A stretch of 42,362 bases of DNA from a virus. Where the stretch lies: positions 1 to 42,362 of the IMG/VR virus record IMGVR_UViG_3300045970_000666, one strand, 5' to 3'. Positions 1 to 17,758 of this stretch are shown in pieces. Position 1 is the first letter of the stretch. Every line of letters begins with the position of its first letter. Below the pieces are notes generated by a model, which was not told the origin of the DNA, did not search any database, and saw nothing but the letters and a program-made list of their open reading frames with translations. A program made the translations under genes and the position numbers.

Positions 1-127
1 GGCAAGCAGGTTTATGGCCAGTATCACGACGTTGGCCGAGGTCAGGCGGGCGCAGAACTGGAACTCGAAGCCAAGCGCATGACGCTGGCCTCAGTGCAGG
101 CCTCGACAGGTATTGACAAGCTCTTTA
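1..127. repeat. Terminal overlap, left copy (contig closure)
   Basis: These 127 bases are identical to 42236-42362. The overlap lies inside the tape measure reading frame and keeps it open, so the two ends are the same stretch of a circular map. An overlap of exactly 127 is a common maximum k-mer size for short-read assemblers, so it probably reflects assembly of a circular or circularly permuted molecule, not a biological terminal repeat. Confidence 0.93.
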
Positions 128-1767
128 CGGACATCGTTTCCGGCATCAGCTTGGCAACCGCGTCCAGCGCCGAACTCGACGCGGCGCTGACCAAACTGTC
201 AGATGTCATGGTGATCAAGAAGGAATTCGAGGCGCTTGGCTGGAATATCGCCAGCCTGACCACTTCCCTGATTGACGCAGCAGGCGGCACCGCCAATCTT
301 CAAGCGGGAATCTCGACCTACTACGACAATTTCTACACGGATGCTGAAAAGCAGCAGGCGACGTGGGCCGCGCTCTCGACACAGTTCTCGGCCATCGGCA
401 TCACGCTCCCCGACGCGACCAATGCCACCCGCGAGTGGTTCCGCGCGCAGATGGAAATGCCGGGGATTACCGATGCCACCAAGGCCGCGCTGCTCGGCAT
501 GTCGGGTGCCTTCGCCAGCGTGGTTTCGGCCACTACGTTAGCGACCGCCGCCGTGGTGGATAACGCGGCGGCCCTCAAAGCCGCCGCCGATCTCAAGCGC
601 ACCAACGACAGCCTGCTGGTCACTCAATACGAACTCGAAGGCAAAGCCGCTGATGCACTGGCCCTGCGTCGCACGCTTGAGACGGACGGCATGGCGACAA
701 GCACGCTGGCAATCCAGAACCGGATTTACGCGCTGCAAGATGAGGCAATGGCAACACAGGCCGCCGCCGATGCCGCAGCCGCGCTGGCACAGATCAACGC
801 CACCCGCCAAGGCTGGCAGGATCAGCTCGACGTGCTGACCGGCGCAAAAACGCAGCAGCAACTTGATCGCCAGAACACGCTCGCTGGCACGACGGACGCC
901 GCGACAAGATCACTGATGAATCAGGTATTCGCGCAGCAGGACTTGAATGCTGCGTCCGCTTTATTGAATCAAGCCTATGCTGATATTGCAGCAGCAGCAA
1001 AGAATGCTGCTGCACAGGCCGACGCCAATTGGCAAGCCTTGGGGGAGTCGGTGATTGCCTCATGGAAGAATCAGGAAAGCGTCCTGTCGGCCACCATTAC
1101 AAAAATGGACGCCTTCACTGATTCGATCAAGAAATTTCAAGATAGTCTGAATCTGGGCGACAGTTCAACCCTTTCGCCTGCCAAAAAATATAGCGTGGCG
1201 AATTCCACATTTGTCACGACGGCGCAGAAAGCCGGACTAGGCAACGAACAGGCCATCAATGATCTTCCGGCGGCCATCACGGCGCTACTCACTGCATCAA
1301 AGACCAATTCCGGCGATCTATCCGCCTATTCCCGCGATCAGGCCCGCGCCAACGCCGCACTGAATACCGTCGAAGCCTATACCTCCGGCATGGCCGCGCA
1401 GTCGGCGCAGCAGCTCAATGCCCTGCCGGCGCAAATGGAAGCGTATTACGCCTCGGTGAGTCGCATGTATCACGCCGCAGGTGTGCCCGGATTTGCATCC
1501 GGGGGAATGGCTAGCGGATTATTCACGGCGGGAGAAAAGGGAACCGAGCTGATGTACTCGCCCTCTCCGGTGCGCGTCCTGTCGAACAGTCAAAGCGGCG
1601 CAGCGGTGATTGATGGTGGCAATGTATCGAAATTGCTGACCGAGCTGATTGCCGAAAACAAGCGCATATCAGAAAAACTGGCCGCCATCGAAGGCCACGC
1701 CAAGCGCACCGCGACGGCGACCAACGGACGGCCCGATGCGCCGGTGCTGGTGGAGATCGCGCCATGA
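1..1767 (+). CDS. Tail tape measure protein, C-terminal part (continues from 39578-42362)
   Basis: This is the 3' part of the tape measure gene. The frame is open from base 1 and continues the frame that starts at 39578. Joining 39578-42235 to 1-1767 gives 1,474 codons and a stop. The internal ATG at 79 is not the start. This part is rich in Ala, Gln and Asp with long helical stretches, as expected for a protein that spans the tail lumen and sets its length. By the family rule of about 1.5 angstrom per residue, the full protein would predict a tail near 220 nm (inference). The stop overlaps the next gene by 4 nt. Confidence 0.88.
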   Translation, partial: GKQVYGQYHDVGRGQAGAELELEAKRMTLASVQASTGIDKLFTDIVSGISLATASSAELDAALTKLSDVMVIKKEFEALGWNIASLTTSLIDAAGGTANLQAGISTYYDNFYTDAEKQQATWAALSTQFSAIGITLPDATNATREWFRAQMEMPGITDATKAALLGMSGAFASVVSATTLATAAVVDNAAALKAAADLKRTNDSLLVTQYELEGKAADALALRRTLETDGMATSTLAIQNRIYALQDEAMATQAAADAAAALAQINATRQGWQDQLDVLTGAKTQQQLDRQNTLAGTTDAATRSLMNQVFAQQDLNAASALLNQAYADIAAAAKNAAAQADANWQALGESVIASWKNQESVLSATITKMDAFTDSIKKFQDSLNLGDSSTLSPAKKYSVANSTFVTTAQKAGLGNEQAINDLPAAITALLTASKTNSGDLSAYSRDQARANAALNTVEAYTSGMAAQSAQQLNALPAQMEAYYASVSRMYHAAGVPGFASGGMASGLFTAGEKGTELMYSPSPVRVLSNSQSGAAVIDGGNVSKLLTELIAENKRISEKLAAIEGHAKRTATATNGRPDAPVLVEIAP

Positions 1768-2699
1768 CCACCGCGTACAGTCCAAAAGTATTGGTTCCAT
1801 TATCCATTGTTGATGCGACCGTCACCAGCTCCACCGTAGCGGAACCCGCGGCGGGCGAAACCGCATGGATCAGCGCCAGCACCTATGCGGTTGGTGATCG
1901 TCGGATTCGCACTACGACACATAAAATCTACGAGTGCATTGCCGCGCACACCGGCATCACGACTTACCCGGAAAACGACCCGAACCGCTGGACCAGCATC
2001 GGCCCGACCTCTAAATGGTCGATGTTCGATAACACCTGCGCCACACAGACCACCTGCGTAACGCCGCTGACCGTGGTCATGGCGCCCGACTTCATCAATG
2101 CGCTTAATCTGTACGGCTTACTCGGCGCATCGGTCGAAGTGACTCTCAAGGATGCGCCAGGCGGATCAGTGGTGTATTCCGAAACGACCGTATTGAATGG
2201 CCACTATCTGGACGAATATGATTATTGTTTTGGCCAGGATCGCCAGATTACCAAGCTGGTGGTCGACGGATTATCGCCCTATCCATCGGCAGAGTTAACG
2301 ATCAGCATTACCTCGACGGGCGGGGCCACAGTCGGTTGCGGCATGGTCTGCGTGGGTGATCTGCGCGACCTGATCCTGGGCGACTGGGGTGGCGCACAGT
2401 ATGGTGCGAAGTCCGAGCCGGTGGATTACAGCTACATCAAACTCGACGACTTTGGCAATGCCGAGATCGTGCGCCGTCACAGCGCCTTGAATGCCAGTTT
2501 CAGCGTGGTTTTGCCGCAGACCGGGGCCGACTATGCGCTGGCCTGCATTCAGGAAACACTGGCCGTCCCGGCGGCGTTTGTCGGCACGGTGGCGGACGGT
2601 TATGAAGGTCTTAACGTGTTTGGCCTCGGCTCTGGCTCACTGAGTTACGACGGCCCCAATCACGCCACGCTCACCATCAATGTAAAAGGACTCGTCTGA
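1764..2699 (+). CDS. Distal/minor tail protein with a carbohydrate-binding-like module
   Basis: A 311-residue protein whose ATG overlaps the tape measure stop (ATGA), so it is probably a distal tail or tail-tip component. Near residues 30-72 is a small aromatic module with the pattern TYAVG..R, IYEC..AHTG, P..DP.RW, similar to chitin/cellulose-binding-like modules seen in phage tail proteins. The next gene carries a related module. The remainder looks beta-rich and contains several cysteines (for example GCGMVCVGDL). Exact role (distal tail or baseplate hub) is not determined. Position and module are seen; carbohydrate binding is inferred. Confidence 0.65.
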   Translation: MTTAYSPKVLVPLSIVDATVTSSTVAEPAAGETAWISASTYAVGDRRIRTTTHKIYECIAAHTGITTYPENDPNRWTSIGPTSKWSMFDNTCATQTTCVTPLTVVMAPDFINALNLYGLLGASVEVTLKDAPGGSVVYSETTVLNGHYLDEYDYCFGQDRQITKLVVDGLSPYPSAELTISITSTGGATVGCGMVCVGDLRDLILGDWGGAQYGAKSEPVDYSYIKLDDFGNAEIVRRHSALNASFSVVLPQTGADYALACIQETLAVPAAFVGTVADGYEGLNVFGLGSGSLSYDGPNHATLTINVKGLV

Positions 2700-4051
2700 T
2701 GACTACGCCCACATCTCCTACACCAATTACCGCTGCGCCGACGGTTCCGGATCGCGCTGATCGAAGCACTTTCCCGGCGCGAATGTCTGCCTTTTTTTCG
2801 TATTTGGCGGGAAGTTTTTTATCTGGGGCCAACGCGCTGGCAACCAACATTTACGACAATGCGCTTCTGGCGTATGGCTACGCCACCAGCAGCGCCACGG
2901 ACGCTTCCGTCGCCAGCGCCGCCGTCACGACCATGAATGCCATCGCGTGGGTTAGTGGCACGACCTATGCCATCGGCAATGCGCGATACAGTCCGGCTAA
3001 TTTGCAAACTTATCGCCGCGTGACTGCCGGGGCAGGCACGACCGACCCATCGACAGATGCAACTAACTGGACGCGGGTGGCGTTATCCGGGTTGTCTCCC
3101 GTAAGTCACCTTTATTCTGCCCACCCTACCGGAACATTCTCCCGCGCTGCATCGGTAGTCGGCGCGGCCTACTCGCGGACTTTGACTACTGTCACGGTCA
3201 CGGAGAACGCGCATACCCGGCAGATCGGGGATTATCTCTATCTAGACTTTACAACTGGCACGGCAGTTGATGGCTGGTTCACTATTACCGGCAAGACCGC
3301 AAATGACTGGACGGTGACACACAGCACATCCGGGGCGACTTCCGGTCTGGTCACCATCTACCCTCCGGTCATTATCACCGTGACCAGTCAAGCGGCGCAT
3401 TTGTTATCCAACGGGGATACGACTTATGTGGATTTCTCAGGTACGTTCACTGCCTCTAATTTCACTGTGGCACAGGTGGTCGGCGCTACTTTCCAGATAA
3501 AAGGCGATACCGGAAATCCGACCACGTTCGCCACGCTGGGCGTAAATACATCCGGCACAGTGACGCTCAACTCTATCGCTTACACAACGACATGGACAAA
3601 ACCTGCGGGGCTGGTCTATGCGAAGGTAACGGCGGTAGGGGGAGGAGGTTCGAATGCGGGTGGTGGGGGTGGGACGAGTATCAAGACCATCCTTGCTGCA
3701 AGTCTCGGGGCGACTGAAACAGTGATCGTGGGGCGCGGCGGGCAGATTGTGACCGCAGCAGGGGTGGGTGGGACAAGCTCATTCGGGGCGCACTGTTCAG
3801 CAACGGGGGGCACAACTGGCTCTGGTCTTGGTGGAACGGGTACTGGTGGCGATATAAATATAAATGGGAGTCCATGCGGGGACGGGGATGGAACAACCGG
3901 AACAAATGGAGGGGCATCATTCTTAGGTGCGCCGGGGGGGATGTCGGCTCCTTATAACGCTCCCGCTGGATACGGCGGTGGCGGGAGTGCAAATGGCGCG
4001 AATCTTGGCACTGGCGCTCGTGGTGTTGTGATTGTTGAGGAGTTTTATTGA
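2699..4051 (+). CDS. Tail fibre/tip protein with glycine-rich C-terminal domain
   Basis: A 450-residue protein that starts at the stop of the previous gene. Near residues 80-125 is a second small aromatic module (TTYAIGNARY, QTYRRVTAG, P.TDATNW) like the one in the preceding protein. The middle is Thr/Val-rich and probably beta-structured. The last about 150 residues form a glycine-rich domain that begins near TTWTKPAG and contains GGGGSNAGGGGG and repeated GGxG runs. This domain type is common at phage fibre tips, where it is thought to form a polyglycine sandwich that contacts the receptor. Probably the receptor-binding protein (inference from domain and position). Confidence 0.7.
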   Translation: MTTPTSPTPITAAPTVPDRADRSTFPARMSAFFSYLAGSFLSGANALATNIYDNALLAYGYATSSATDASVASAAVTTMNAIAWVSGTTYAIGNARYSPANLQTYRRVTAGAGTTDPSTDATNWTRVALSGLSPVSHLYSAHPTGTFSRAASVVGAAYSRTLTTVTVTENAHTRQIGDYLYLDFTTGTAVDGWFTITGKTANDWTVTHSTSGATSGLVTIYPPVIITVTSQAAHLLSNGDTTYVDFSGTFTASNFTVAQVVGATFQIKGDTGNPTTFATLGVNTSGTVTLNSIAYTTTWTKPAGLVYAKVTAVGGGGSNAGGGGGTSIKTILAASLGATETVIVGRGGQIVTAAGVGGTSSFGAHCSATGGTTGSGLGGTGTGGDININGSPCGDGDGTTGTNGGASFLGAPGGMSAPYNAPAGYGGGGSANGANLGTGARGVVIVEEFY

Positions 4052-4353
4052 TGCGCTACTTACGAATCCAAGACGGCAAGGCCGTTGAGTCCATCAACGT
4101 CGACTCCATTGAAGGGCTATTCCATCCCGACTTGATCTGGATACCTTCGGAAACCGCGCAGTTGGGCGATGTGTGGGATGGAACTAATTTCAGTACGCCC
4201 ATTCCCCTGCCGCCGACCAACGCGGAACTGCTGAAGAAAATTGTTGCGCTTCAGCAAAAGTCCCTGCGCTCGCTGGTGGAAGATGCGCCAGACACGACAT
4301 GGCTTGACCAGTACAAAGCACAGATCATTGCTCTGCGGAACCAAATGATATGA
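4051..4353 (+). CDS. Small protein after the tail fibre; possible fibre accessory/assembly protein
   Basis: About 100 residues. I chose the ATG at 4051, which shares one base with the fibre stop (TGATG) and has a GAGGAG ribosome site at about -12; a TTG one codon upstream is less likely. The N-terminus (MRYLRIQDGKAVESI) and a central DGTNF-like motif resemble short proteins found after fibre genes, and the C-terminal half looks helical. It overlaps the peptidase gene by 4 nt, so translation is coupled. Specific family not recognised; a chaperone or accessory role is a guess from position. Confidence 0.65.
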   Translation: MRYLRIQDGKAVESINVDSIEGLFHPDLIWIPSETAQLGDVWDGTNFSTPIPLPPTNAELLKKIVALQQKSLRSLVEDAPDTTWLDQYKAQIIALRNQMI

Positions 4354-5282
4354 ACCCCGCTGCTGTCGATCTTCGCCCGTTGGTAGATCAGGTAGAGAAT
4401 CAGGGAACTGTCGGTATGTGCGTGGCCGAAGGCATCCACAAAGCCGTGGAGGTGGCCTATGAGCGCAACGGGGGTGACTTGAAACTCTCCCCGGCTTACC
4501 TCTACTACTACGCGAGAGAGCTTGAGAAATTCCCATCGACCGAGGGTATCAAGACGCTCGGTGATGCGGCTACCGTTTTGCAGTCGCGGGGCTGTTGTCT
4601 TGAATCTTCCTATCCTTCAACGACCAACAAACAGGATATCAAGCCGCCTGCTGCGCTGGACGCTGAAGCTGCCGAGTACAAGATTCAGTCTTGGCATTAT
4701 CTCAGCGTAACACTCGACACCATCAAGACCTGTCTGGCGCAAGGAATGTGCGTGCCGATTGGCATGGCGTTGACCGAGGATTTCTACAGCCTTGGCGATC
4801 AGAAGAACTGGCGCGAGTCGCACTGGAACCCCATCGGTGACCGATTCAAGAATCCGTTTGTCGGCGAGCATGCGGTGATGATAATCGGCTATGACGATGC
4901 GGTGGGCCGGTTCTTGGTGCAAAACTCATGGGGGCCGGCCTGGGCAGATGGGGGCTTCTTCGGCCTGCCGTATGCCTCGATCTACAACTGCATCGTGCAA
5001 TGCCTTGTCATAGATAAGCTCGGCGTGCCGTTCGTCAATGCCGGCTGGACAGAAGAACCGATAGTGACGTTTGATCGGCTAATGGATTGGGCTGAGAAAA
5101 CCTACGGCCTCGCGCATATGACCACACAACGGTTCGCTCAATACTTGTACCGCACCTACGGCGACGTGTCGGCAGGGCTGGATATGAATCGCGGCATGAT
5201 CGTTAAATACACCGCATCGACCAACACGATGGAAGACTTCGGGTTGGAGTCGGAGTGGCTGGATAAAATAAATTTATCATAA
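4350..5282 (+). CDS. Papain-like (C1 family) cysteine peptidase in the tail cluster
   Basis: A 310-residue protein. The papain triad is readable: Gln18 (oxyanion hole) and Cys24 in NQGTVGMCVAEG, His174 in GEHAVMIIGYDD and Asn192 in VQNSWGPAWADGG. There is no signal peptide and no propeptide; the chain starts almost at the mature papain N-terminus, so it may need no activation. Residues after about 225 form an extra C-terminal domain of unknown role. ATG overlaps the previous stop (ATGA). Placed between fibre and lysis genes, it could be virion-associated (processing tail proteins or degrading host surface protein) or act at lysis; the sequence does not decide. Confidence 0.85.
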   Translation: MNPAAVDLRPLVDQVENQGTVGMCVAEGIHKAVEVAYERNGGDLKLSPAYLYYYARELEKFPSTEGIKTLGDAATVLQSRGCCLESSYPSTTNKQDIKPPAALDAEAAEYKIQSWHYLSVTLDTIKTCLAQGMCVPIGMALTEDFYSLGDQKNWRESHWNPIGDRFKNPFVGEHAVMIIGYDDAVGRFLVQNSWGPAWADGGFFGLPYASIYNCIVQCLVIDKLGVPFVNAGWTEEPIVTFDRLMDWAEKTYGLAHMTTQRFAQYLYRTYGDVSAGLDMNRGMIVKYTASTNTMEDFGLESEWLDKINLS

Positions 5283-5306
5283 TTACGGTACTCACTAAGG
5301 AAAATC

Positions 5307-5570
5307 ATGGCTTCTAAAGATTGTATGACTCAAACTTCCTGTACTCACGCACTTGAGTCTGCTGAACTTGCAGTCAAGAAGGTATTCGCCATCCTCGGCG
5401 TGGATATAGATAAGCCGGAATCGGTCGAAGCCTTCCGCGAGGATTTACGCTTCGGAAAGAAACTGCGCAAGGCCACCGATCACGGCGTGCTCGCTTTCGT
5501 CGGCCTGGTGGTTGTGGCGCTGGGTATGGCGCTGTGGACCGGTATCGTGCATAACGCGGTGGGAAAATGA
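5307..5570 (+). CDS. Small membrane protein upstream of the endolysin
   Basis: 87 residues with an AAGGAAAA ribosome site just before the ATG. Residues 1-60 are charged and soluble; residues about 61-80 (VLAFVGLVVVALGMALW) form one transmembrane helix, with a short tail. The layout is a cytoplasmic domain with C-terminal anchor. It overlaps the peptidase start by 4 nt, which ties it to lysis. It may be a second holin-type or accessory lysis protein. Family not recognised. Confidence 0.65.
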   Translation: MASKDCMTQTSCTHALESAELAVKKVFAILGVDIDKPESVEAFREDLRFGKKLRKATDHGVLAFVGLVVVALGMALWTGIVHNAVGK

Positions 5571-6001
5571 ACTTGACCGATCATTTCACGCTGGAAGAAC
5601 TGACGCGCAGCAGCAAGGCGGAGCGCTTCGGCATTGATAACACGTGCTCGGCGCTGATCGTTGCGCGTCTGAATGTGCTGGCGCATGGACTGGAGGAAGT
5701 GCGGGCGCTGCTCGGCTTCCCACTGCATATTGATTCCGGCTACCGAGCCCCGGCGCTGAATGCAGCCGTCGGCGGCGCCAAGGATTCGGCGCACATGGAT
5801 GGTTACGCGGCGGATTTCGTCTGCGATCCGTTCGGCGACGCACTGTCGATTGTGAAGGCCATCGAGGCCAGCGATATTCAATTCGACCAATGCATTCAAG
5901 AGGGCGGCTGGGTGCACATTTCATTTGACCCGCAACTGCGCCGCAGAATACTGACCGCGCATTTCAGCTATGCCGGCACGACCTACACGCTGGGGGTGTA
6001 A
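5567..6001 (+). CDS. Endolysin, M15 family peptidase (D-Ala-D-Ala type)
   Basis: 144 residues, full length for the Peptidase_M15_3 family. The N-terminus (LTDHFTLEELTRS) is the typical opening helix. The zinc motif SxHxxGxAxD is present as SAHMDGYAAD with His76 and Asp83, and the third ligand is His117 in WVHISF. There is no signal sequence, so release to the periplasm needs the adjacent holin. It cleaves peptide bonds of the peptidoglycan stem or cross-bridge at the end of infection (family knowledge). Coupled by overlaps to both neighbours. Confidence 0.88.
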   Translation: MNLTDHFTLEELTRSSKAERFGIDNTCSALIVARLNVLAHGLEEVRALLGFPLHIDSGYRAPALNAAVGGAKDSAHMDGYAADFVCDPFGDALSIVKAIEASDIQFDQCIQEGGWVHISFDPQLRRRILTAHFSYAGTTYTLGV

Positions 6002-6246
6002 TGAACTGGCTGCGTGAGGCGATCAGCGACGGTCGCACCGACCGCGCCAGCGCCAAGCGGATCGCCATGCTGCTGGCGACGCTGGCGATGTCGATCAGCC
6101 TGGTGATCCTGGCCGCTGCCGGGTACATCGGAAATGAAGTAGCGATGGCGATGGGCGCTGTCGCCGTACCGCTGGCGGGCCTGGGCGGGTATTCCTACGT
6201 CAATGGCAAGACGGCAGAAGCAAAACGTGATGCGGAGGTCAAATGA
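6001..6246 (+). CDS. Holin (two transmembrane segments)
   Basis: 81 residues. A short charged N-terminus (DGRTDRASAKR) is followed by two hydrophobic segments at about residues 21-43 and 47-66, then a charged tail ending in Lys/Glu residues. This is the class II holin layout. The ATG shares a base with the endolysin stop (TAATG). It would form the membrane lesion that releases the M15 endolysin. Assigned by topology and position between endolysin and spanins, not by a named family. Confidence 0.78.
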   Translation: MNWLREAISDGRTDRASAKRIAMLLATLAMSISLVILAAAGYIGNEVAMAMGAVAVPLAGLGGYSYVNGKTAEAKRDAEVK

Positions 6247-6247
6247 C

Positions 6248-6739
6248 ATGCTCAATCCATCAATTCTTCTTGCACGCCTTGTCGCTGTTCTCGTCGCCGT
6301 CGGCCTGGGATTCTGGACCGGGTATCAATGGGAGGTCCGCGCCCATGCCAAGCAGCAGCTCGAAGCGGCCAATTTCGCTGCTGACAAGGCACGTGCAGAC
6401 GCTAAGACTGAATCCGCAGAAGCGCTGGCCGTCGCAGAAGCCTCAGCGAAAACACGCCTTGCGTCCAGTGAAAAACGCCACAAACTAGAATTGGAGATCG
6501 CCCGTGATGAAACTGCTCGTAATTGCCGCGTTAGCGATGGAACTTTCGGCGTGCTGCTCGACGCCATCCGTACCGCCAACGGTGCCCCGCCCTCGGCCAT
6601 CCGCATCGATGCTGGACTGCCAGCCCTACCCGGAACCCGCAAGCCCGTCAGCAGCGGATCTGGCGCGAGCGGTGCAGGATGGCTCGGAGGTCTACGCCTC
6701 CTGCCGACTGGAAAAGCGGGCGCTGGTGGAGTGGATTAG
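6248..6739 (+). CDS. Inner-membrane spanin subunit (Rz-like)
   Basis: 163 residues from the ATG two bases after the holin stop; an upstream in-frame start inside the holin gene is unlikely. An N-terminal membrane anchor (residues 5-25, ending GFWTGYQW) is followed by a long Ala/Glu/Lys-rich coiled coil, the i-spanin layout. The outer subunit is encoded inside this gene in another frame. Together they would fuse inner and outer membranes after the wall is cut, which indicates a Gram-negative host. The last 50 residues are low in structure and share DNA with the nested gene. Confidence 0.82.
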   Translation: MLNPSILLARLVAVLVAVGLGFWTGYQWEVRAHAKQQLEAANFAADKARADAKTESAEALAVAEASAKTRLASSEKRHKLELEIARDETARNCRVSDGTFGVLLDAIRTANGAPPSAIRIDAGLPALPGTRKPVSSGSGASGAGWLGGLRLLPTGKAGAGGVD

Positions 6740-6752
6740 GCGAGGGGAGTGA
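6507..6752 (+). CDS. Outer-membrane spanin lipoprotein (Rz1-like), nested in Rz
   Basis: About 81 residues starting at ATG 6507 (a GTG lies one codon upstream). The signal peptide MKLLVIAALAMELSAC ends in a lipobox (LSAC), so Cys16 would be lipidated. A Pro-rich stretch follows (STPSVPPTVPRPRP), as usual for Rz1. It lies in a different frame within the Rz gene and runs 13 nt past its stop, the classic nested spanin arrangement. Confidence 0.85.
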   Translation: MKLLVIAALAMELSACCSTPSVPPTVPRPRPSASMLDCQPYPEPASPSAADLARAVQDGSEVYASCRLEKRALVEWIRRGE

Positions 6753-6974
6753 TCGCTGAAAAGTGTCTAAGATTAAAAATGACACCCAGCAACCACGCGG
6801 GTTCGCGGACACCTAAAAACCACAAAACCTTAGAAGGTTTCTCTATATAAAATGCTTAATTATCAAATAGATATAGCATTTATTCTAGTTGCTGACAGCA
6901 AAACCACATAGCTCTATATGTATTTGATTCATTTGATATTTATCGCAATCTGTCTAAGGTTTTTAGGTAAGTGT
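6753..6974. other. AT-rich intergenic region, candidate attP with arm-type repeats
   Basis: An AT-rich gap between the lysis cassette and the 3' end of the integrase gene. AAGTGTCTAAGATT occurs at 6761-6774 and again at 6969-6982 (inside the integrase stop region), and a related TGTCTAAGGTT at 6951. ACCTAAAAACC (6811-6821) is inverted at 6958-6968. A 7-bp inverted repeat AAACCTT/AAGGTTT lies at 6825-6840. Direct and inverted short repeats beside a tyrosine integrase are what arm and core sites of an attP look like. I cannot identify the exact crossover core or a tRNA fragment. Confidence 0.5.
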
Positions 6975-7928
6975 CTAAGATTTTGTCGCAAACTTCACCG
7001 GATCGACGACTGGAATAGTATGTTCGCGCAGGTATCCCGCGTGCGTTTTTTTCTCTTTGTGACCTAGCAATCCCATCCCGTCTATTCCTTGCTTTTTGGC
7101 CTCACCCGCTGCGGTGGCGCGAATGTCATGCAGGGTTACTCCCTTCACGCCTGATTTCTCCAAGGCCCGCATAAACTGCGTCCGAATCGTGTTGTAGGCA
7201 AGCTGTGTGCCTTTGCGCGTATGGAATAGGGTAAGCCCTCGCACGGACTGATGGATGCTCTTGGCAGTCCTGATGGCCGCTTCCAGATCGGGCGATATTT
7301 TCACAATCAATTCATGCCCGGTCTTTTGTTGTTTAACGTATAGACCATCAGCTATAAAGTCGGCATATTTGATCTTCAGCACGTCGCCTATTCTCTGCCC
7401 GGTCAGGTAGCAAATATCGAGGATAGCTCTGAGCGTAGGTTGGCAGTGCGCCTTGATAAGCTCGAATTCCGCTATGGTCAGGTTGCGCGTTCGCTTGGTG
7501 CTGGGGAATAAGTCAATCTCGGTGGCGACGTTATGCTCAATCAAGCCTTTTCTGATGCCGAGACTCAGGACCATGCGTAACGTCCTGACGTACTGATTCG
7601 CCATCGCCGGGGTATCACTGGTGGCGTCCATCAAGGCGTAAATATGGGACGGCTTCAGATCGGACGGCTCAAACTCTGCAAATACTTTCTTGATCTTGTT
7701 GCAGGCCAAGGTATGCAGCTTGACCGTACTCGGCTCGCCGGTGTATTTGGACAGAAACGCATCCGAGAGGTCGGCCAGCCCTTTAATTCTTTTCTCAACA
7801 AACGTGCCAGAGTACATCCTGAAAGCCTCGGCCTTGTCTCTGGACAAAAATGTCCACTTGTTGCGAAAGACATAATAGTAAGCCCCGTTCTTTTCGTGCA
7901 TCCGGACGGGGAGTTTCCGGGCGTTCAT
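6975..7928 (-). CDS. int: Tyrosine recombinase (phage integrase)
   Basis: 317 residues. The C-terminal catalytic domain shows the expected residues in order: Arg in GQRIGDVLK, Lys in KQQKTGHEL, His-x-x-Arg in LHDIRATAA, His in LLGHKEKKTHAGY, with the Tyr nucleophile in that last motif. The N-terminal part has the SAM-like core-binding domain (about residues 55-150). It integrates and excises the phage at attP/attB. It is the last gene of the leftward operon and overlaps the DUF4224 gene by 4 nt. The TAG stop lies within one of the direct repeats of the attP candidate. Confidence 0.92.
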   Translation of the reverse strand: MNARKLPVRMHEKNGAYYYVFRNKWTFLSRDKAEAFRMYSGTFVEKRIKGLADLSDAFLSKYTGEPSTVKLHTLACNKIKKVFAEFEPSDLKPSHIYALMDATSDTPAMANQYVRTLRMVLSLGIRKGLIEHNVATEIDLFPSTKRTRNLTIAEFELIKAHCQPTLRAILDICYLTGQRIGDVLKIKYADFIADGLYVKQQKTGHELIVKISPDLEAAIRTAKSIHQSVRGLTLFHTRKGTQLAYNTIRTQFMRALEKSGVKGVTLHDIRATAAGEAKKQGIDGMGLLGHKEKKTHAGYLREHTIPVVDPVKFATKS

Positions 7929-8116
7929 AGGTGCATTCTTGGCTCTGGCTTGGTAATTTGACCGGATAGACTAGCACACACGGCCTCACGGAGTACCCTT
8001 GGCCAGCCATCGCCGCCTATCTTGAATAGGTAGCCATTATCGGCAAGCCACTCCATGACCTTGGCCGGGCGCTTCCATCCGGTTAATTCCCGAAGTTCTT
8101 CGATGGTCAGGAACAT
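7925..8116 (-). CDS. DUF4224 protein, probable excisionase-like factor
   Basis: 63 residues. The sequence FLTIEELRELTGWKRPAK followed by W.ADNGY and GWPRVLRE matches the DUF4224 pattern, a small winged-helix-like family usually found just upstream of phage integrases. ATGA overlap with int indicates coupled translation. A role in directing excision or controlling int is inferred from this association and is not shown by the sequence. Confidence 0.8.
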   Translation of the reverse strand: MFLTIEELRELTGWKRPAKVMEWLADNGYLFKIGGDGWPRVLREAVCASLSGQITKPEPRMHL

Positions 8117-8117
8117 T

Positions 8118-8342
8118 TCAACTCTTCATCCAGTGATGCCGCACGCCGCGCATCCATCCAGCGGCATAGACAAACGACAGCGCAAAAATTCCCCACTGCG
8201 CCGCCTTGAAGGTGGCGTACATCCAGAACGGTTGCGCGATCAGGCCGATGAGGCAGGCCCAGCGTCGCCAGCGTTCGCGCGGATCGTTGGCAAGCCAGAT
8301 CGAGGACATGCCGCAGATCGCAATAATGGCCTGTTCGATCAC
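8118..8342 (-). CDS. Small membrane protein of unknown function
   Basis: 74 residues with a GTG start at 8342 and an AAGGGG ribosome site placed in the end of the preceding gene. Two or three hydrophobic segments (residues 1-18, about 31-45 and 49-66) separated by a charged loop (NDPRERWRR) indicate a small inner-membrane protein. Located in the early operon just before the excisionase/integrase pair. Family not recognised. Confidence 0.65.
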   Translation of the reverse strand: MIEQAIIAICGMSSIWLANDPRERWRRWACLIGLIAQPFWMYATFKAAQWGIFALSFVYAAGWMRGVRHHWMKS

Positions 8343-8346
8343 CGGG

Positions 8347-8652
8347 TTACCCCTTCAACCGATGCTGAGTAACGCGCAAGCCGGGGCGTTGCTCGACCAC
8401 CTTGGCACCGCCTTCGTCGCCCGGCAACGCTATTTCCGATGGAATGAATCCGCTGCCTTTGCCGCCGGCGACGCGGACGAATTCGACTTCGACCTTGGCG
8501 CTGTTGATGATGGTCTGCGCGACATCGGCGATGGCCTTGGCGCGATCGATGTCCAGTGGTTGGCTCTTGTCGCTGAGGCCGCGCAGGGCGGCGAAGAGTT
8601 CAGTGCGCAGCTCGGCGATGGTGCCGCCGGCGGGTGGGGTGTGGGTGGTCAT
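8347..8652 (-). CDS. Conserved phage-type protein of unknown function
   Basis: 101 residues. The start is the ATG at 8652, with AGGAGG 6 bases upstream and a 4-nt overlap with the HNH gene; a much longer open frame upstream is only a shadow of that gene. Residues 10-55 look helical (IAELRTELFAALRGL, IDRAKAIADVAQTIINSAKVE), and residues 56-65 contain VEFVRVAGGKGSGF. The helical part resembles short phage DNA-metabolism proteins, but I do not recognise a named family. Confidence 0.7.
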   Translation of the reverse strand: MTTHTPPAGGTIAELRTELFAALRGLSDKSQPLDIDRAKAIADVAQTIINSAKVEVEFVRVAGGKGSGFIPSEIALPGDEGGAKVVEQRPGLRVTQHRLKG

Positions 8653-9284
8653 GCGGCCTCCTGATGGTGGGTTCGTTCGGCGTTGCGGATCTTGCGCAGC
8701 AGGGCGCCGCGCAGCTGCACCAGCTCGGCGACTTCCCTGGGTAATTGGTGGACGGTATTGCGCGCCATGTTTTGCCGCAACGTGATGCATTCCAGGTTGC
8801 TGATGTCGCAATTCATCCGGTTGCCATCCTTGAAGATCAACACCATGCCGCGCGGAGGCAATTCTCCTGTCGCCTGTACCCAGTTCCAGCGATGCAGTGA
8901 CACCCACTTTCTTGGGCCGGGCGCGGTCTTGATGTCGAGATAGCCTTCCGAATTCAGCCGGATATAGCCGACTGGCAGGCGGTTCGCCGGGGTGCTGCCT
9001 TTCTTGAAGCGCGTTTCTTTCGAACGGCCGCCGGCGACGTAGTGCGTGCCCTTGTTCCAGGGCTCCTGACCTTTGCTGAACCGCGTCTGAATTCCTGTCC
9101 CAGGGTGAAGTCTTCCGGCATCCGGTCCCGCCAGGTAATCGGGGGATTTCTTGAGTCCGATCGCGCGCGCTTTGGTGTAGCAGCTCTGCATCGTGCGGCC
9201 GATGTCCCGTGCGAGATCCTCGGTGCGTTCGTTTGCATAGCGCTTGATCAGCATGGCGAGCTGCTGTTTGGTCCAGATCGTCAT
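8649..9284 (-). CDS. HNH endonuclease (first of three in the operon)
   Basis: 211 residues from ATG 9284, chosen because it overlaps the upstream stop (ATGA); an ATG six codons upstream also exists. The N-terminal part (WTKQQLAMLIKRYANERTE) is a SANT/HTH-like DNA-binding region. The central HNH part reads SLHRWNWVQATGELPPRG, then FKDGNRMNCDISNLECI, with the first His and the DG..N..DISNL signature conserved. The architecture is that of free-standing phage HNH or homing nucleases. It may mobilise itself or cleave competing DNA. Confidence 0.82.
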   Translation of the reverse strand: MTIWTKQQLAMLIKRYANERTEDLARDIGRTMQSCYTKARAIGLKKSPDYLAGPDAGRLHPGTGIQTRFSKGQEPWNKGTHYVAGGRSKETRFKKGSTPANRLPVGYIRLNSEGYLDIKTAPGPRKWVSLHRWNWVQATGELPPRGMVLIFKDGNRMNCDISNLECITLRQNMARNTVHQLPREVAELVQLRGALLRKIRNAERTHHQEAA

Positions 9285-10174
9285 GATGCCGCGGCGTCGC
9301 ACACTTCAAGCTGGCCGCCCTGGTCAAGCAGATGCTTAGCCCATCCCGGCATCTTTCCTCTGCCCGTCCAGGTGAGGTCGGAATTCTGCGGGTGGCGATA
9401 CTTGATCGGGACGCCGCTGCCTTTCTTGGCAGCCGGTTTGCTGATAATGTTCCGATTGCCTTTGTCATCCAGGGCGCTGATGATCCCTTCTTTTTCCATC
9501 CGCTCCAGGATGCGCGCGGCGGCGTTGTATCCGATCTTCAGATTTCGCTGCACATGGCTGATCGATGGTCGATTGGTTTCGCGCACCAGCTTGACGGCCT
9601 CCTGATACGCCTCTTCGCTTTCCGCGCCTAAGCGGCCAATGACGTCTCCGTCAGGACCGGTGATGGTGAGTGAGGTTCCGCTCTTTTCGAGTGATTCATT
9701 CAGGGCCTTGATCTCTGTCACCACGTCAGAATCTGCAGTTTTTGGCTGCAAATCCAGACTGGGTTCCGGGCGAATTTCGATCTCGATTTCATCGCCCGCC
9801 AGATCGGCGAGGATCGCGGTCTGCCGGCCTTCGGGATGCACGCTGGCTACCAGTGACAGCGCCAGTCGGCCCGACGGCAGCGGCTCGAATTTGAACTTGG
9901 TCAGCACGGCGCCGATGAAGCGCTCGCCGGCAATGGTGAGATCCATGTGCGCCATTTCACCAGTCCAGCTGATCGGCTTGATGTTGCGCATGCGCGGGCC
10001 GCCATGCTCGGAGAACAGAAAATGGCGCAGGGTTGGATCGAAATGCGCCAGGATGCCCGGATCGGTAGCGGCACTGAGCTTGATGTCGATCATCAGCATG
10101 TGCGCGTCTGCGGGGCCTTTCTTGCGGATATTGACCTTGCTGAGGGTAATCATCTGGTGGAGTTCTAGACTCAT
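9281..10174 (-). CDS. Fusion of phage-specific N-domain, FtsK-gamma winged helix and H-NS-type DNA-binding domain
   Basis: 297 residues with three parts. Residues 1-140 form a beta-rich domain of unknown family, ending in an acidic stretch. Residues about 185-243 match the FtsK gamma domain (EEAYQEAVKLV, SISHVQRNLKIGYNAAARIL, MEKEGII), a winged helix that in FtsK reads polarity sequences and contacts XerD. Residues about 257-292 carry the H-NS C-terminal DNA-binding signature (KYRHPQNSDLTWTGRG, then P.W). No ATPase motor is present. ATG overlaps the upstream stop and has an AAGGA site. A role as DNA-architectural, recombination or silencing factor is inferred. Confidence 0.75.
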   Translation of the reverse strand: MSLELHQMITLSKVNIRKKGPADAHMLMIDIKLSAATDPGILAHFDPTLRHFLFSEHGGPRMRNIKPISWTGEMAHMDLTIAGERFIGAVLTKFKFEPLPSGRLALSLVASVHPEGRQTAILADLAGDEIEIEIRPEPSLDLQPKTADSDVVTEIKALNESLEKSGTSLTITGPDGDVIGRLGAESEEAYQEAVKLVRETNRPSISHVQRNLKIGYNAAARILERMEKEGIISALDDKGNRNIISKPAAKKGSGVPIKYRHPQNSDLTWTGRGKMPGWAKHLLDQGGQLEVCDAAAS

Positions 10175-10629
10175 GACATTCCTTTTATGCGATAGGTTTT
10201 GGTGAGGGGTTGCGTGAGTGCGCGCTCAACGGTCCAGCCGAGGCGCAGGCGCATGCGGATGGTGTTGGCCGTCATACCGACAGCAGCGGCCCAGTCAGCA
10301 ACGTTCTGCGTGATGCCGTTGTGCGTCAGTTCAACGCAGGACGAACGGTGCTTGTTTTGCTCGGCTTGTGTAGTCCATCGACAGTTGCCTGGTTCGTAGC
10401 CGATCTCGTTCTTGTGCCGGTCAAGCGTCATCGTTCGATCAGGGCATTCGTCCATGTCGGCGAGGAAGGCCGCGAACTCGTGCCAGCGCGCGCAGACGGT
10501 GATGCCCTTCCGCCGTAGTAGCGGTAGTTGGTCGCCGTGGCGGTGTAGCAGCGCTGCATCATGGATTTCCAGCGCGCATAAGTTATGCGTGCCGTGGCCA
10601 CCGTGTTTGGGGTTGCCGTGCTTATTCAT
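10171..10629 (-). CDS. HNH-like nuclease (second)
   Basis: 152 residues. The opening NKHGNPKHG, the middle GITVCARWHEFAAFLADM, then LDRHKNEIGYEPGNCRW and EQNKHR follow the pattern of small phage HNH-type nucleases that carry the LDR..N..Y.P.NCRW signature. The C-terminal part (VADWAAAVGMTANTIRMRL, GW..ERAL) is a helix-turn-helix module typical of nuclease-associated modular domains. It overlaps the upstream gene by 8 nt and the downstream gene by 4 nt. Catalytic competence cannot be judged from sequence alone. Confidence 0.72.
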   Translation of the reverse strand: MNKHGNPKHGGHGTHNLCALEIHDAALLHRHGDQLPLLRRKGITVCARWHEFAAFLADMDECPDRTMTLDRHKNEIGYEPGNCRWTTQAEQNKHRSSCVELTHNGITQNVADWAAAVGMTANTIRMRLRLGWTVERALTQPLTKTYRIKGMS

Positions 10630-10984
10630 GGCCGTGCCCCATCTCGATGATGGCGTGGACTACGCATAGCAAGCGTGAGACAGCGGTATCAGCGATCTCT
10701 GCACCCTCGCGCAGGTGGTCCTTGTAAAGGTTGATTTCCTCGACCATATTGAGCAACGTGTCTGGACCGTCACCTGAGCCAAAGCCTTCTAGTAGTTGGT
10801 CGCGAGAGCGCGCCAGCGAGATCAGCATTACGCGGCGTCGCATGCCCCAAATGCTGTTGTACTCACGTTCGCTTTCCTCGATTTGCGCTTCGGTGACTAG
10901 CGCCGTGAAATCGCGTTGCGCGACTTCGTCCATTGTGGGTTCGGCGGTGGGTTTGGCGCGAGCGCGCCGGGTTTTTGCATTCAT
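10622..10984 (-). CDS. Protein of unknown function downstream of the structured RNA leader
   Basis: 120 residues from ATG 10984, which has a GGAG site 9 bases upstream. The open frame continues far upstream, but that part overlaps strong RNA hairpins and does not look like protein. The N-terminus is basic (KTRRARAKP); the middle (FTALVTEAQIEESEREYNSIWGMRRRVMLISLARSRD) and the rest are helical. Family not recognised. It is the first gene after the C4-like RNA segment and its promoter, and so the most direct candidate for control by it. Confidence 0.72.
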   Translation of the reverse strand: MNAKTRRARAKPTAEPTMDEVAQRDFTALVTEAQIEESEREYNSIWGMRRRVMLISLARSRDQLLEGFGSGDGPDTLLNMVEEINLYKDHLREGAEIADTAVSRLLCVVHAIIEMGHGHE

Positions 10985-11017
10985 GATGTGTGCTCCAGTC
11001 CGATTGAATAACCGAAT

Positions 11018-11108
11018 TCCCGTCGCCAAACGGGAGGGCGGTACCGAACGGGTTGGCGAACCGGTGGAGCACCGGCAGAGCCTTGCGGCTCTCCCATTCG
11101 GCCCGCCC
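11018..11108 (-). ncRNA. Candidate C4/CI-like structured antisense RNA
   Basis: Read on the minus strand, 11108-11036 folds into a three-way junction. The closing helix is GGGCGG/CCGCCC (11103-11108 with 11036-11041) plus CCGAA/TTCGG (11097-11101 with 11044-11048). Inside are hairpin AGAGCC-GCAA-GGCTCT (11077-11092) and hairpin CCGGTG-CTC-CACCGG (11061-11075). An unpaired TTCGCCAACCCG (11049-11060) remains. This segment is complementary, apart from one bulge, to the upstream hairpin at 11179-11195 and partly to the hairpin at 11018-11035 just 3' of it. A sense-antisense-sense order is how the P1 C4 and P4 CI immunity RNAs work. Family membership is inferred. Confidence 0.55.
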
Positions 11109-11128
11109 AAAACTGGACGCACCAAACG

Positions 11129-11162
11129 ACAAAAAAGCCGCTTGCTGACTGCATAGCGGCTT
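11129..11162 (-). terminator. Rho-independent terminator in the leader
   Basis: On the minus strand, AAGCCGCT and AGCGGCTT pair (8 bp; 11155-11162 with 11135-11142) around a 12-nt loop that can itself pair TGC/GCA, followed directly by six T. It lies between the leader promoter and the C4-like RNA, so it would stop read-through from upstream unless the fold is prevented. Confidence 0.75.
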
Positions 11163-11178
11163 GTCGCCGCTCCATCCG

Positions 11179-11195
11179 AGTCGCCAAACCCGACT
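11179..11195 (-). promoter_or_regulatory. Leader hairpin, candidate antisense target
   Basis: Minus-strand hairpin AGTCG-GGTTTGG-CGACT. It contains the 10-mer GTTTGGCGAC, which recurs in the hairpin at 11018-11035. The single-stranded TTCGCCAACCCG of the C4-like RNA can pair with it over about 11 bases with one bulged T. It lies about 20-30 nt after the predicted transcription start. Confidence 0.45.
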
Positions 11196-11218
11196 ACGTT
11201 TTTTCCCGTAGCGAGCGG

Positions 11219-11248
11219 ATCATGCGCCCGGTTGAATGCGCTTGTCAA
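11219..11248 (-). promoter_or_regulatory. Promoter for the structured leader (minus strand)
   Basis: Minus-strand TTGACA (11243-11248), 18 bp, then CATGAT (11219-11224), a perfect -35 and a 4/6 -10. It would start transcription near 11212, ahead of the leader hairpin, the terminator and the C4-like RNA. It lies just after the third HNH gene and so makes the downstream half of the operon independently expressible. Confidence 0.6.
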
Positions 11249-11277
11249 TAGTCGGCGCTGGCGGCACGGCGAAGCAA

Positions 11278-11763
11278 TCATGATGCGTAGGCGTCCGACC
11301 AGGGCTTGCTGCGAACAATGCGATAGATGGTGCTTTGGCGTACGCCGAACTCCCGCGCCAGTGCACAGGTGCTGTTGCCGCGCTGGTAAGGCGTGTAGCG
11401 CCGATAGATTTCGTCGCGCTGGGCATTGGACAGCTTGGCGAGGCCATGCGCTTCGCCGCTGGCCTTATTGCCGCGTCCCTTGGCGAGCATGTCGGCGGTA
11501 TTCGCACGCTGATTGCCAAGGCTCAAGTGCGCGGGATTGATGCAGAGCCGGTTGTCGCAGGAGTGCATGACCACCGCGCCCGCCGGGATTTCGCCGTGAT
11601 GCACGAGATAGGAGATGCGGTGTGCGCTCTGGTGGCGACCATCGGCCCAAATCAACCCATATCCCGACGTCTTGCTATTCCCGCCAGTCCAGATCAGGCA
11701 ATCGCCCTGCGAAACGGCCTTAGCGAGCAATCGTTCTTTGATCGTGGGGTTCATGGGGTTCAT
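11278..11763 (-). CDS. HNH endonuclease with C-terminal helix-turn-helix (third)
   Basis: 161 residues (an ATG three codons later is possible). The HNH_3 signature is clear: AHRISYLVHHGEIPAGAVVM, HSCDNRLCINPAHLSLG, then ANTADMLAKG. The C-terminal 45 residues form a DNA-binding HTH (LSNAQRDEIYRRYTPY, CALAREFGVRQSTIYRIV). This is the layout of phage homing-type nucleases. No strong ribosome site is visible. It separates the DUF1566 pair from the structured leader. Confidence 0.88.
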   Translation of the reverse strand: MNPMNPTIKERLLAKAVSQGDCLIWTGGNSKTSGYGLIWADGRHQSAHRISYLVHHGEIPAGAVVMHSCDNRLCINPAHLSLGNQRANTADMLAKGRGNKASGEAHGLAKLSNAQRDEIYRRYTPYQRGNSTCALAREFGVRQSTIYRIVRSKPWSDAYAS

Positions 11764-11784
11764 GCCGGAATGAAAAGGTGGCGG

Positions 11785-12168
11785 CTAGTCGATCAGCAAT
11801 CTGCGGACAGCTCTGGCGCGGCACTGGGCGCCGAGGTGGTCGTTGAACTGGGTGCCGTTGCGGAAGTACTGACTCCAGGCATACCTCGCGTCGGAGGCGT
11901 ATGCCTCGCCGGACCAGTACCAGTTGGGCTTGAATTCCTCTTTGAGGTTGGCGTAGAGCAGCGACTGTTCGCGTCGTGTCGGCAGTTCGCCGCCGGCTTT
12001 CTTGGCGAACTCCTTGGCTTGTTCCCAGGTGACGCCATTGGCTTCACCGGGCAGCAGGATCAGGTGGTAGTCCGGTTCGCCGTTTTTGCCGAGGATGAAT
12101 CCGGAATAGGTCTCGCCGGCCTTGAGGTTGTCTTTGAGCCAGCGGGCTTTGAATTCAGAGGGTTTCAT
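11785..12168 (-). CDS. DUF1566 (C-type-lectin-like) protein A with variable C-terminal segment
   Basis: 127 residues from ATG 12168 with AGGAG 8 bases upstream. The DUF1566/Lcl C-terminal pattern is clear: LPTRREQSLLYANL, WYWSGE, YAWSQYF, CRARAVRRL. This fold is one of the main classes of diversity-generating retroelement (DGR) target proteins. It is paralogous to the next gene upstream: about half identical in the first 80 residues, but with almost identical DNA in the last 128 bp apart from clustered changes in codons that specify surface residues. Function in the phage is unknown; DUF1566 domains usually display ligand-binding loops. Confidence 0.85.
   Translation of the reverse strand: MKPSEFKARWLKDNLKAGETYSGFILGKNGEPDYHLILLPGEANGVTWEQAKEFAKKAGGELPTRREQSLLYANLKEEFKPNWYWSGEAYASDARYAWSQYFRNGTQFNDHLGAQCRARAVRRLLID
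11797..11924 (-). repeat. Variable-region repeat, copy A (DGR-like)
   Basis: 128 bp aligned without gaps to 12213-12340. The first 34 bp (11797-11830, the 3' end in coding sense) and the last 20 bp (11905-11924) are identical. The 74 bp between differ at 14 positions in 10 codons, all at codon positions 1 or 2 and none at position 3. Eight of the 14 have A on the coding strand in one copy, and the rest are explained if both copies were changed from an A. Confidence 0.8.
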
Positions 12169-12203
12169 GTGGCGCTCCTGCGAAGGAATGAAGGGATAAA
12201 GGA

Positions 12204-12578
12204 CTAAATGGACAATCTGCGGACAGCTCTGGCGCGGCACTGGGCGTAGATGTGGCGGTAGTACTGGTTGCCGTTGCCGAAGTACTGAAACCAGGCATAC
12301 CTCGCGTCGGAGGCGTGTTGCTCGCCGGACCAGTACCAGTCCTCTTCGAAATGCTGTTTGCAATTGGCGAACAGGAGTGATTGCTCGCGGCGATTAGGCA
12401 GTTCGCCACCGATGCTTGCGGCCCAATCGACAGCGGCTTGCCATTCGGTGTCTTCGTGATCACCGGGCAGCAGCACCAGATGATGGATAGGCGTGCCGTC
12501 TTCGCTGAGGATCAGGCCGGCGTATTGTTCGCCGTCGGCGAGTCCGATGTCGACGGCAGGGATTGCGATTTTCTTCAT
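12204..12578 (-). CDS. DUF1566 (C-type-lectin-like) protein B with variable C-terminal segment
   Basis: 124 residues from ATG 12578 with GGAG 9 bases upstream. Same DUF1566 signature as its neighbour: LPNRREQSLLFANC, WYWSGE, YAWFQYF, YAQCRARAVRRL. The variable segment here reads GNGNQYYRHIYAQ where copy A has RNGTQFNDHLGAQ. Tyr, Asn, Asp, Arg and Gly at the varying sites are typical of mutated AAY codons. It precedes copy A in the operon. Two adjacent targets with diverged N-terminal halves but near-identical 3' DNA suggest that both received this segment from a shared source. Confidence 0.85.
   Translation of the reverse strand: MKKIAIPAVDIGLADGEQYAGLILSEDGTPIHHLVLLPGDHEDTEWQAAVDWAASIGGELPNRREQSLLFANCKQHFEEDWYWSGEQHASDARYAWFQYFGNGNQYYRHIYAQCRARAVRRLSI
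12213..12340 (-). repeat. Variable-region repeat, copy B (DGR-like)
   Basis: Partner of 11797-11924. The 34-bp block 12213-12246 is identical to copy A and lies at the 3' end of the gene, where the initiation-of-mutagenic-homology site of a DGR target sits. I found no third copy (template repeat) elsewhere in the window. Confidence 0.8.
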
Positions 12579-17101: not shown

Positions 17102-17758
17102 TCAGGCAACCCAGAGCGCGACGTCTTCCAGTCTTGCTTTATCACGCTGTGGCGATTTTTCGAACCTGGCGTACAAGCACTCGTTGGCCGCGTCGGAGTA
17201 TGCTGGGAGTTCAGAAAGCGCAGCGCCGAAAAGCGATTCGTAAGCCTTGATGCCATATCGGCGCAGGGCTATGCGGTCCGGAATGTTGGCTTCAATCGCA
17301 AGCAGGGTTTCAGGTGACAGAGAGACCTCGTAGCGTTTTGCTATGTGCGCAATGTTTTCCGGGTTATCGACCAGGCACAACTCCAGCAGCCGGTTCATGG
17401 CGACGCTTTGGTTAATATCTTCAGATTCGTACTTCGAGAAGGCCACTGGGCCACCGCCAAACAATTCAGCAGCGAGCTTCTGTGTAAGTCGGAACCGCGT
17501 GCGCAGCGACTTGATTTGATCTCCGCTCAGAAGTTTGCTTCCCTGGCGCGCAACTGAGCGTATCCGCTTCAGTTCTGCGCGAATCAGGTTCGAATTGAAG
17601 TCGAGTTGATCAGGGGTTTCTACCTGGGCATCGCAATGCGGGCACTGCCAATGTTGCAGCCCTTCGACGAAAACACTGCCGTTGCGTGTGTTCACATCGC
17701 GCGAACTGGTTGTAACGATCATCTCGCCTTCCCTGCATCGACGGCAAATTTTGCTCAT
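17102..17758 (-). CDS. MqsA-like antitoxin with zinc finger, XRE helix-turn-helix and C-terminal extension
   Basis: 218 residues. Zinc ligands Cys5/Cys8 (KICRRC) and Cys39/Cys42 (WQCPHC) form the N-terminal MqsA/YgiT finger. Residues 76-125 are the HTH (LLSGDQIKSLRTRFRLTQKL, FSKYESEDINQS). The E. coli protein ends near residue 131; here about 85 extra residues follow. In TAC systems such a C-terminal chaperone-addiction segment makes the antitoxin depend on SecB (established for the type; inferred here). Two bases separate it from the toxin gene and one base from the chaperone gene. Confidence 0.8.
   Translation of the reverse strand: MSKICRRCREGEMIVTTSSRDVNTRNGSVFVEGLQHWQCPHCDAQVETPDQLDFNSNLIRAELKRIRSVARQGSKLLSGDQIKSLRTRFRLTQKLAAELFGGGPVAFSKYESEDINQSVAMNRLLELCLVDNPENIAHIAKRYEVSLSPETLLAIEANIPDRIALRRYGIKAYESLFGAALSELPAYSDAANECLYARFEKSPQRDKARLEDVALWVA

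Follow-up and report, generated by a model that had tools for sequence, protein, structure and literature searches.

The window analyzed here, i.e., the complete 42,362-bp IMG/VR record IMGVR_UViG_3300045970_000666, comes from a phage, as indicated by recognizable terminase, portal, and capsid-protease genes and an integrase gene. A tape-measure-like gene with few homologues seems to be split between the two ends of the record (39578–42361 and 1–1767, in frames that do not join directly), so the record may represent a nearly complete, circularly permuted genome. The window also encodes an MqsA-type antitoxin domain (17102–17758; E = 8.6e-14), and no near-identical DNA for positions 1–12000 was found among GenBank phages. 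The locus under study lies on the (−) strand and is annotated as follows, in the direction of transcription:

12204..12578 (−): upstream target gene of a diversity-generating retroelement (DGR), 124 aa, Lcl_C/DUF1566, C-type-lectin-like fold (Pfam PF07603, E = 2.8e-6, under the curated cut-off)
12213..12314 (−): portion of the upstream target's variable repeat (VR) that is homologous to template repeats (TRs), from alignment to the TRs of two relatives, L008 and L001
12183..12216 (−): T-rich repeated element behind the upstream VR, retained (consensus AGATT..C.ATTTA.T.ATTTA..CATTT)
11785..12168 (−): downstream DGR target gene, 127 aa, next to the HNH gene (PF07603, E = 2.5e-6, under the cut-off)
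11797..11898 (−): TR-homologous portion of the downstream target's VR, from TR comparison; the T-rich element behind it is mostly gone
11278..11763 (−): HNH endonuclease gene at the relatives' Avd start, in the place of Avd, TR, and reverse transcriptase (RT) (PF13392, E = 1e-10; PHROG endonuclease/HNH families)
11030..11114 (−): C4 antisense RNA (Rfam RF01695, 47.4 bits against a cut-off of 45)
10622..10984 (−): small ORF following the C4 RNA, 120 aa when started at an internal ATG of ORF 10622–11281
10171..10629 (−): second HNH-type gene (phrog_3377, E = 1.2e-33)

The HNH gene starts ~22 bp behind the downstream target and is followed by the C4 RNA, the small ORF, and the second HNH-type gene. 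The small ORF has no Pfam match and by its position would belong to the same cassette. Relatives of the second HNH-type gene were found after the first HNH in locus L078 and inside the broken DGR of locus L093.

Comparison of the two target genes reproduced the pattern that an earlier note on this DNA had described. Specifically, the 128-bp ends at 11797–11924 and 12213–12340 align without gaps and share identical blocks of 20, 26, and 34 bp. The 14 differences between them fall in 10 codons, always at codon position 1 or 2 and never at position 3, and 11 of the 14 are transversions. Farther upstream, the two genes are an ordinary pair of diverged paralogues, with identity at 37 of 80 aligned residues and with 34, 25, and 40 differences at codon positions 1, 2, and 3, respectively. 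At the rate seen in these upstream parts, the absence of any third-position change among 14 differences would be improbable (binomial p = 0.0014). Earlier work (PMC6642488) has described both DGRs that carry several VRs and DGRs whose targets are DUF1566 proteins. Our AF2 model of the upstream target (12204–12578) has a pLDDT of 96.3, and its best structural match is the C-terminal domain of Legionella Lcl (8q4e, TM 0.69), followed by C-type lectins. The model thus shows the C-type-lectin-like fold of a DGR target gene, as the note had supposed.

Relatives of the targets occur among GenBank phages, in IMG/VR, and as prophages in species genomes, mostly those of Betaproteobacteria. Most of them carry the same tandem target pair with Avd, TR, and RT directly downstream (~99 loci); this core is complete behind the pair in Burkholderia phage Magia, Shewanella phage QDWS, L001, and most others, and the depositors of Magia had themselves annotated a "possible DGR target". 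The downstream target of the window (11785–12168) is homologous to positions 8001–8384 of L001, where the gene stands ahead of Avd. In the DGR mechanism, the TR is copied with random changes at adenines and the VRs are rewritten. At the 99 loci with an intact RT, 75-nt alignments of every VR with the TR of its own locus showed differences at 2148 of 4609 A positions, compared with 86 of 9566 other positions. As judged from these alignments, such A-specific differences are the signature of a DGR.

The nearest templates to the VRs of the window are those of L008 (UViG_3300037189_016545) and L001 (UViG_3300025308_000096), both of which have a primase and neighbouring genes in common with the window but, unlike it, retain an intact Avd-TR-RT core. 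Since the window's own TR has been lost, its VRs were judged against the TR of L008, which over 84 nt mismatches one VR at 2 and the other at 3 non-A positions; the TR of L001 does so at 5–6. In both comparisons, TR homology begins at about ACGCCTCCGACG, which places 3 of the 14 differences (those in the first two codons) 5′ of the VR proper and 11 inside it. L008 has A in its TR at 10 of these 11 positions (27 A in 84 nt; hypergeometric p = 2.7e-5) and T at the eleventh, where many other TRs of the family have A. With the relative's TR as the yardstick, the C-terminal VRs show the differences at TR adenines that mark a DGR target gene. Several further TR adenines are altered alike in both VRs, so the lost template was probably different there, or the VRs have a common ancestry at these positions. 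Both the A-specific pattern at 99 loci and the 10 of 11 matches to adenines of L008 uphold the mutation signature that had been proposed for the pair. We therefore regard the two genes, on the strength of their relatives, as authentic DGR targets whose core once lay directly downstream.

Nothing of this core was recovered from the window. Searches of the 42,362-bp record returned no RT (PF00078, RVT_1), no remnant of Avd or RT, and no third VR/TR-like copy that might be a template, which confirms that the phage carries neither RT nor template; as far as these searches reach, all three parts that would complete a DGR (RT, TR, and Avd or another accessory protein) are missing. In IMG/VR, the exact 27-bp VR 3′ block had no match, and a 24-bp internal VR block matched L008 alone. 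The template pattern of the window was absent from 399 genomes of one order, a weak test, as these need not include the host of the window. The note had concluded that the enzyme must work in trans, or else that diversification of the pair preceded its capture; this finds no support, as relatives have the core directly downstream and the window has an HNH gene there, like a dozen further relatives that lack the RT. The simplest account would be that the core was recently lost or replaced at this locus.

Homologues of the first HNH gene immediately follow the targets in L056, L078, L084, L089, L091, and L103, none of which has an intact RT, and more distant HNHs occupy the same position in L004, L022, and L135. 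Of the 26 RT-less loci whose sequence extends ~3.5 kb or more downstream, 9 had an HNH directly behind the targets, compared with 1 of ~97 loci with RT (p = 2e-6). When the search started from the HNH instead, the HNH proved to be the next gene after targets in 8 of the 10 nearest among 80 IMG/VR HNH loci, and reading of L174 added a ninth; no intact RT was present at any of them. In a tree of 85 HNHs, 13 from target loci, including that of the window, formed one exclusive clade (SH-aLRT 96). All members of this clade are located directly behind such targets and none beside an intact RT, and a C-terminal RT remnant is often present; the clade includes neither the HNHs near intact RTs (L086 and L029) nor the NUMOD4-type HNH of L004. 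As for RNAs in the stretch that takes the place of the core, a C4 RNA is found there in three loci (window, 11030–11114; L084, 8559–8642; L103, 10571–10650), and an sRNA-Xcc1 match in L078.

We also placed the HNH alleles on a tree of the last target (non-VR part). They were dispersed (13 changes for 14 rows) and no more clustered than shuffled labels, with the reservation that support for this tree is weak and its starred branches force only 4 changes. Because HNH-bearing targets are scattered in this way, replacement of the core has probably been recurrent. The first HNH gene combines the HNH domain expected of a homing endonuclease (PF13392) with sporadic occurrence at one locus in conflict with the flanking-gene tree, the latter being the weakly supported target tree.

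Pairs of loci with and without the core allowed the replacement to be viewed more closely. L084 (HNH) and L060 (RT) are 99% identical in the last target outside its VR, and their flanking DNA has identities of 92% on one side and 90% on the other, with junctions at Avd codon 6 and at the RT LQP motif; the two can be read as a near before/after pair. Among cultured Pseudomonas phages, Cruim01 (PP179333) has a DGR and Aurca01 (PP179334) a NUMOD4-HNH, and the two genomes are 99.8% identical over 2.6 kb downstream and 93% over 3.2 kb upstream. Aurca01 retains its targets, with the HNH directly behind the VR and the left junction at the VR end; a remnant of 30 codons is all of an RT that was found in the whole record. 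C-terminal RT remnants were detected behind the HNH in 11 loci, and their starts fall in a few clusters. In L078 (4907–5197), L103 (11419–11724), and L084 (9419–9790), the remnant is an open frame of ~96–123 codons with its own start, which may reflect either a retained role or recent loss. No HNH was detectable downstream of the targets at the RT-less loci L083 (8363–8594), L040, L101, L137, L141, and L143. From the sequences of these loci, DGR cores appear to have been lost by more than one route.

Next, we considered how recently the VRs may have been rewritten. Tandem VR pairs show no third-position difference over 75 nt in the window, L056, L078, L084, and L089, and the same is true of L091, L022, L176, L180, and L182. 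Such pairs free of silent differences imply either recent loss of the core or rewriting in trans. The T-rich element behind the upstream VR also bears on this point. Its consensus was built from 191 targets of loci with RT, and it has at least three blocks in 153 of 174 distinct targets of such loci and two in the remainder; it is likewise present behind the VRs of L001, L002, L003, and L121. The target next to the HNH has wholly or partly lost the element in the window and in L056, L091, L135, and L004. The DGR of BPP-1 has a hairpin behind its VR. Perfect hairpins (stem of at least 6 bp, loop of 3–8) were absent behind the VRs of the window, L008, L060, and Magia, and one was found in Cruim01. 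The T-rich element may be a candidate recognition element for retrohoming, at the place of the BPP-1 hairpin; BPP-1 requires as much as 35 bp beyond its VR (PMC3240598), which suggests that retrohoming may need the element.

Taken together, we consider it likely that the window contains what was once a DGR, that its core gave way to other DNA, probably through homing of an endonuclease, and that too little time has passed since then for the VRs to decay. The comparisons above establish the DGR ancestry of the targets, the absence of the core, and the HNH in the place of the core, a pattern repeated in many relatives, as well as the confinement of one HNH clade to loci of this kind. In the lineage of the window, the core would have given way to a stretch comprising the HNH endonuclease, the C4 antisense RNA, and the small gene, with its left junction just behind the last VR and a right end devoid of any RT remnant. 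Under intronless homing, the HNH would cut the DGR-bearing allele in a co-infecting phage or a prophage, and repair from the HNH-bearing genome, with the target genes as the left arm and the 3′ end of the RT or the downstream genes as the right arm, would exchange the DGR core for the HNH stretch. The VRs would thereafter stay frozen at their last rewriting, in the window too recently for silent changes to have accumulated. Homing seems the most likely route of replacement, and we infer that cutting by the HNH caused the loss, where the cut was made, and that the targets are now frozen.

A core lost without homing, either at a recombination hot spot that exchanges DGR and HNH modules or through an earlier deletion, with the HNH a mere passenger, is a possibility that we take seriously but think unlikely. 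As the window has no RT remnant, its own event is not separable from a module swap and may equally have been a deletion followed by HNH colonisation; moreover, several RT-less loci have no HNH, L083 resembles a simple deletion, and two types of HNH occur at such loci. On the other hand, the association of the HNH with RT loss is strong, a single HNH clade is confined to DGR target loci, and the RT remnants begin in few clusters directly behind the HNHs, all of which argues for homing. Diversification in trans, with the VRs as passive targets kept fresh by RT, Avd, and TR borrowed from a co-resident prophage or co-infecting phage, appears improbable. It would fit the many RT-less loci whose VR pairs lack third-position differences and the post-VR element retained by the upstream target, and the BPP-1 DGR does function when a donor plasmid provides avd, brt, and TR (PMC3240598). 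However, recent loss accounts for the clean VRs as well, the HNH-proximal target has lost much of its post-VR element, and no matching template turned up in the 399 genomes of one order or, L008 aside, in IMG/VR. Furthermore, a search of the host genomes of L089, L091, and L093 for other RTs of this family yielded remnants only.

We give almost no weight to the reading that the pair are ordinary diverged duplicates, shaped by positive selection or gene conversion, whose DGR-like pattern is coincidental. Every difference does fall at the amino-acid-relevant codon positions 1 and 2, but 99 homologous loci show A-specific TR/VR pairs, silent differences are absent from the ends and numerous in the upstream halves, and the TRs of L008 and L001 are A-rich at the matching columns. 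Chance or ordinary selection on duplicates was rejected because the TR comparison contradicts it.

Returning to replacement by homing, close relatives of the HNH gene occupy this position in other phages as well, which points to repeated silencing of such DGR systems by selfish endonucleases. The chances seem to us about even that these HNHs constitute a homing lineage specialised on DGRs, one that replaces Avd-TR-RT, stops hypermutation, and fixes the current target variant. In the open-access literature, we found no description of an HNH or homing endonuclease associated with a DGR, the search returning reviews and unrelated genomes only. Large surveys detect DGRs via the RT, so targets without a core can be missed. 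Searching from the targets reveals many core-less loci, with part of the loss tied to one endonuclease clade, and natural before/after pairs are available (L060/L084 and the cultured Cruim01/Aurca01). These loci make testable the route of DGR loss, service of VRs in trans, and the role in phages of diversified lectin-like proteins of the early region.

Among known systems, Magia (MT701587) and vB_Sb_QDWS (OK094664) resemble the window in their tandem targets, C-terminal VRs, lectin-like fold, early-region location, and downstream integrase; both have Avd, TR, and RT, whereas the window lacks all three and has the HNH there instead. Aurca01 shares with the window the presence of targets, the loss of RT, and an HNH directly behind the VR, but its NUMOD4-HNH lies outside the HNH clade of the window, and it keeps an RT remnant that the window does not have. 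Finally, the predicted endonuclease of the window is similar to free-standing phage HNH homing endonucleases in its HNH_3 domain, its free-standing gene, and its many phage relatives, and differs from them in that its gene occupies the place of a retroelement core and belongs to a clade confined to the DGR target locus.
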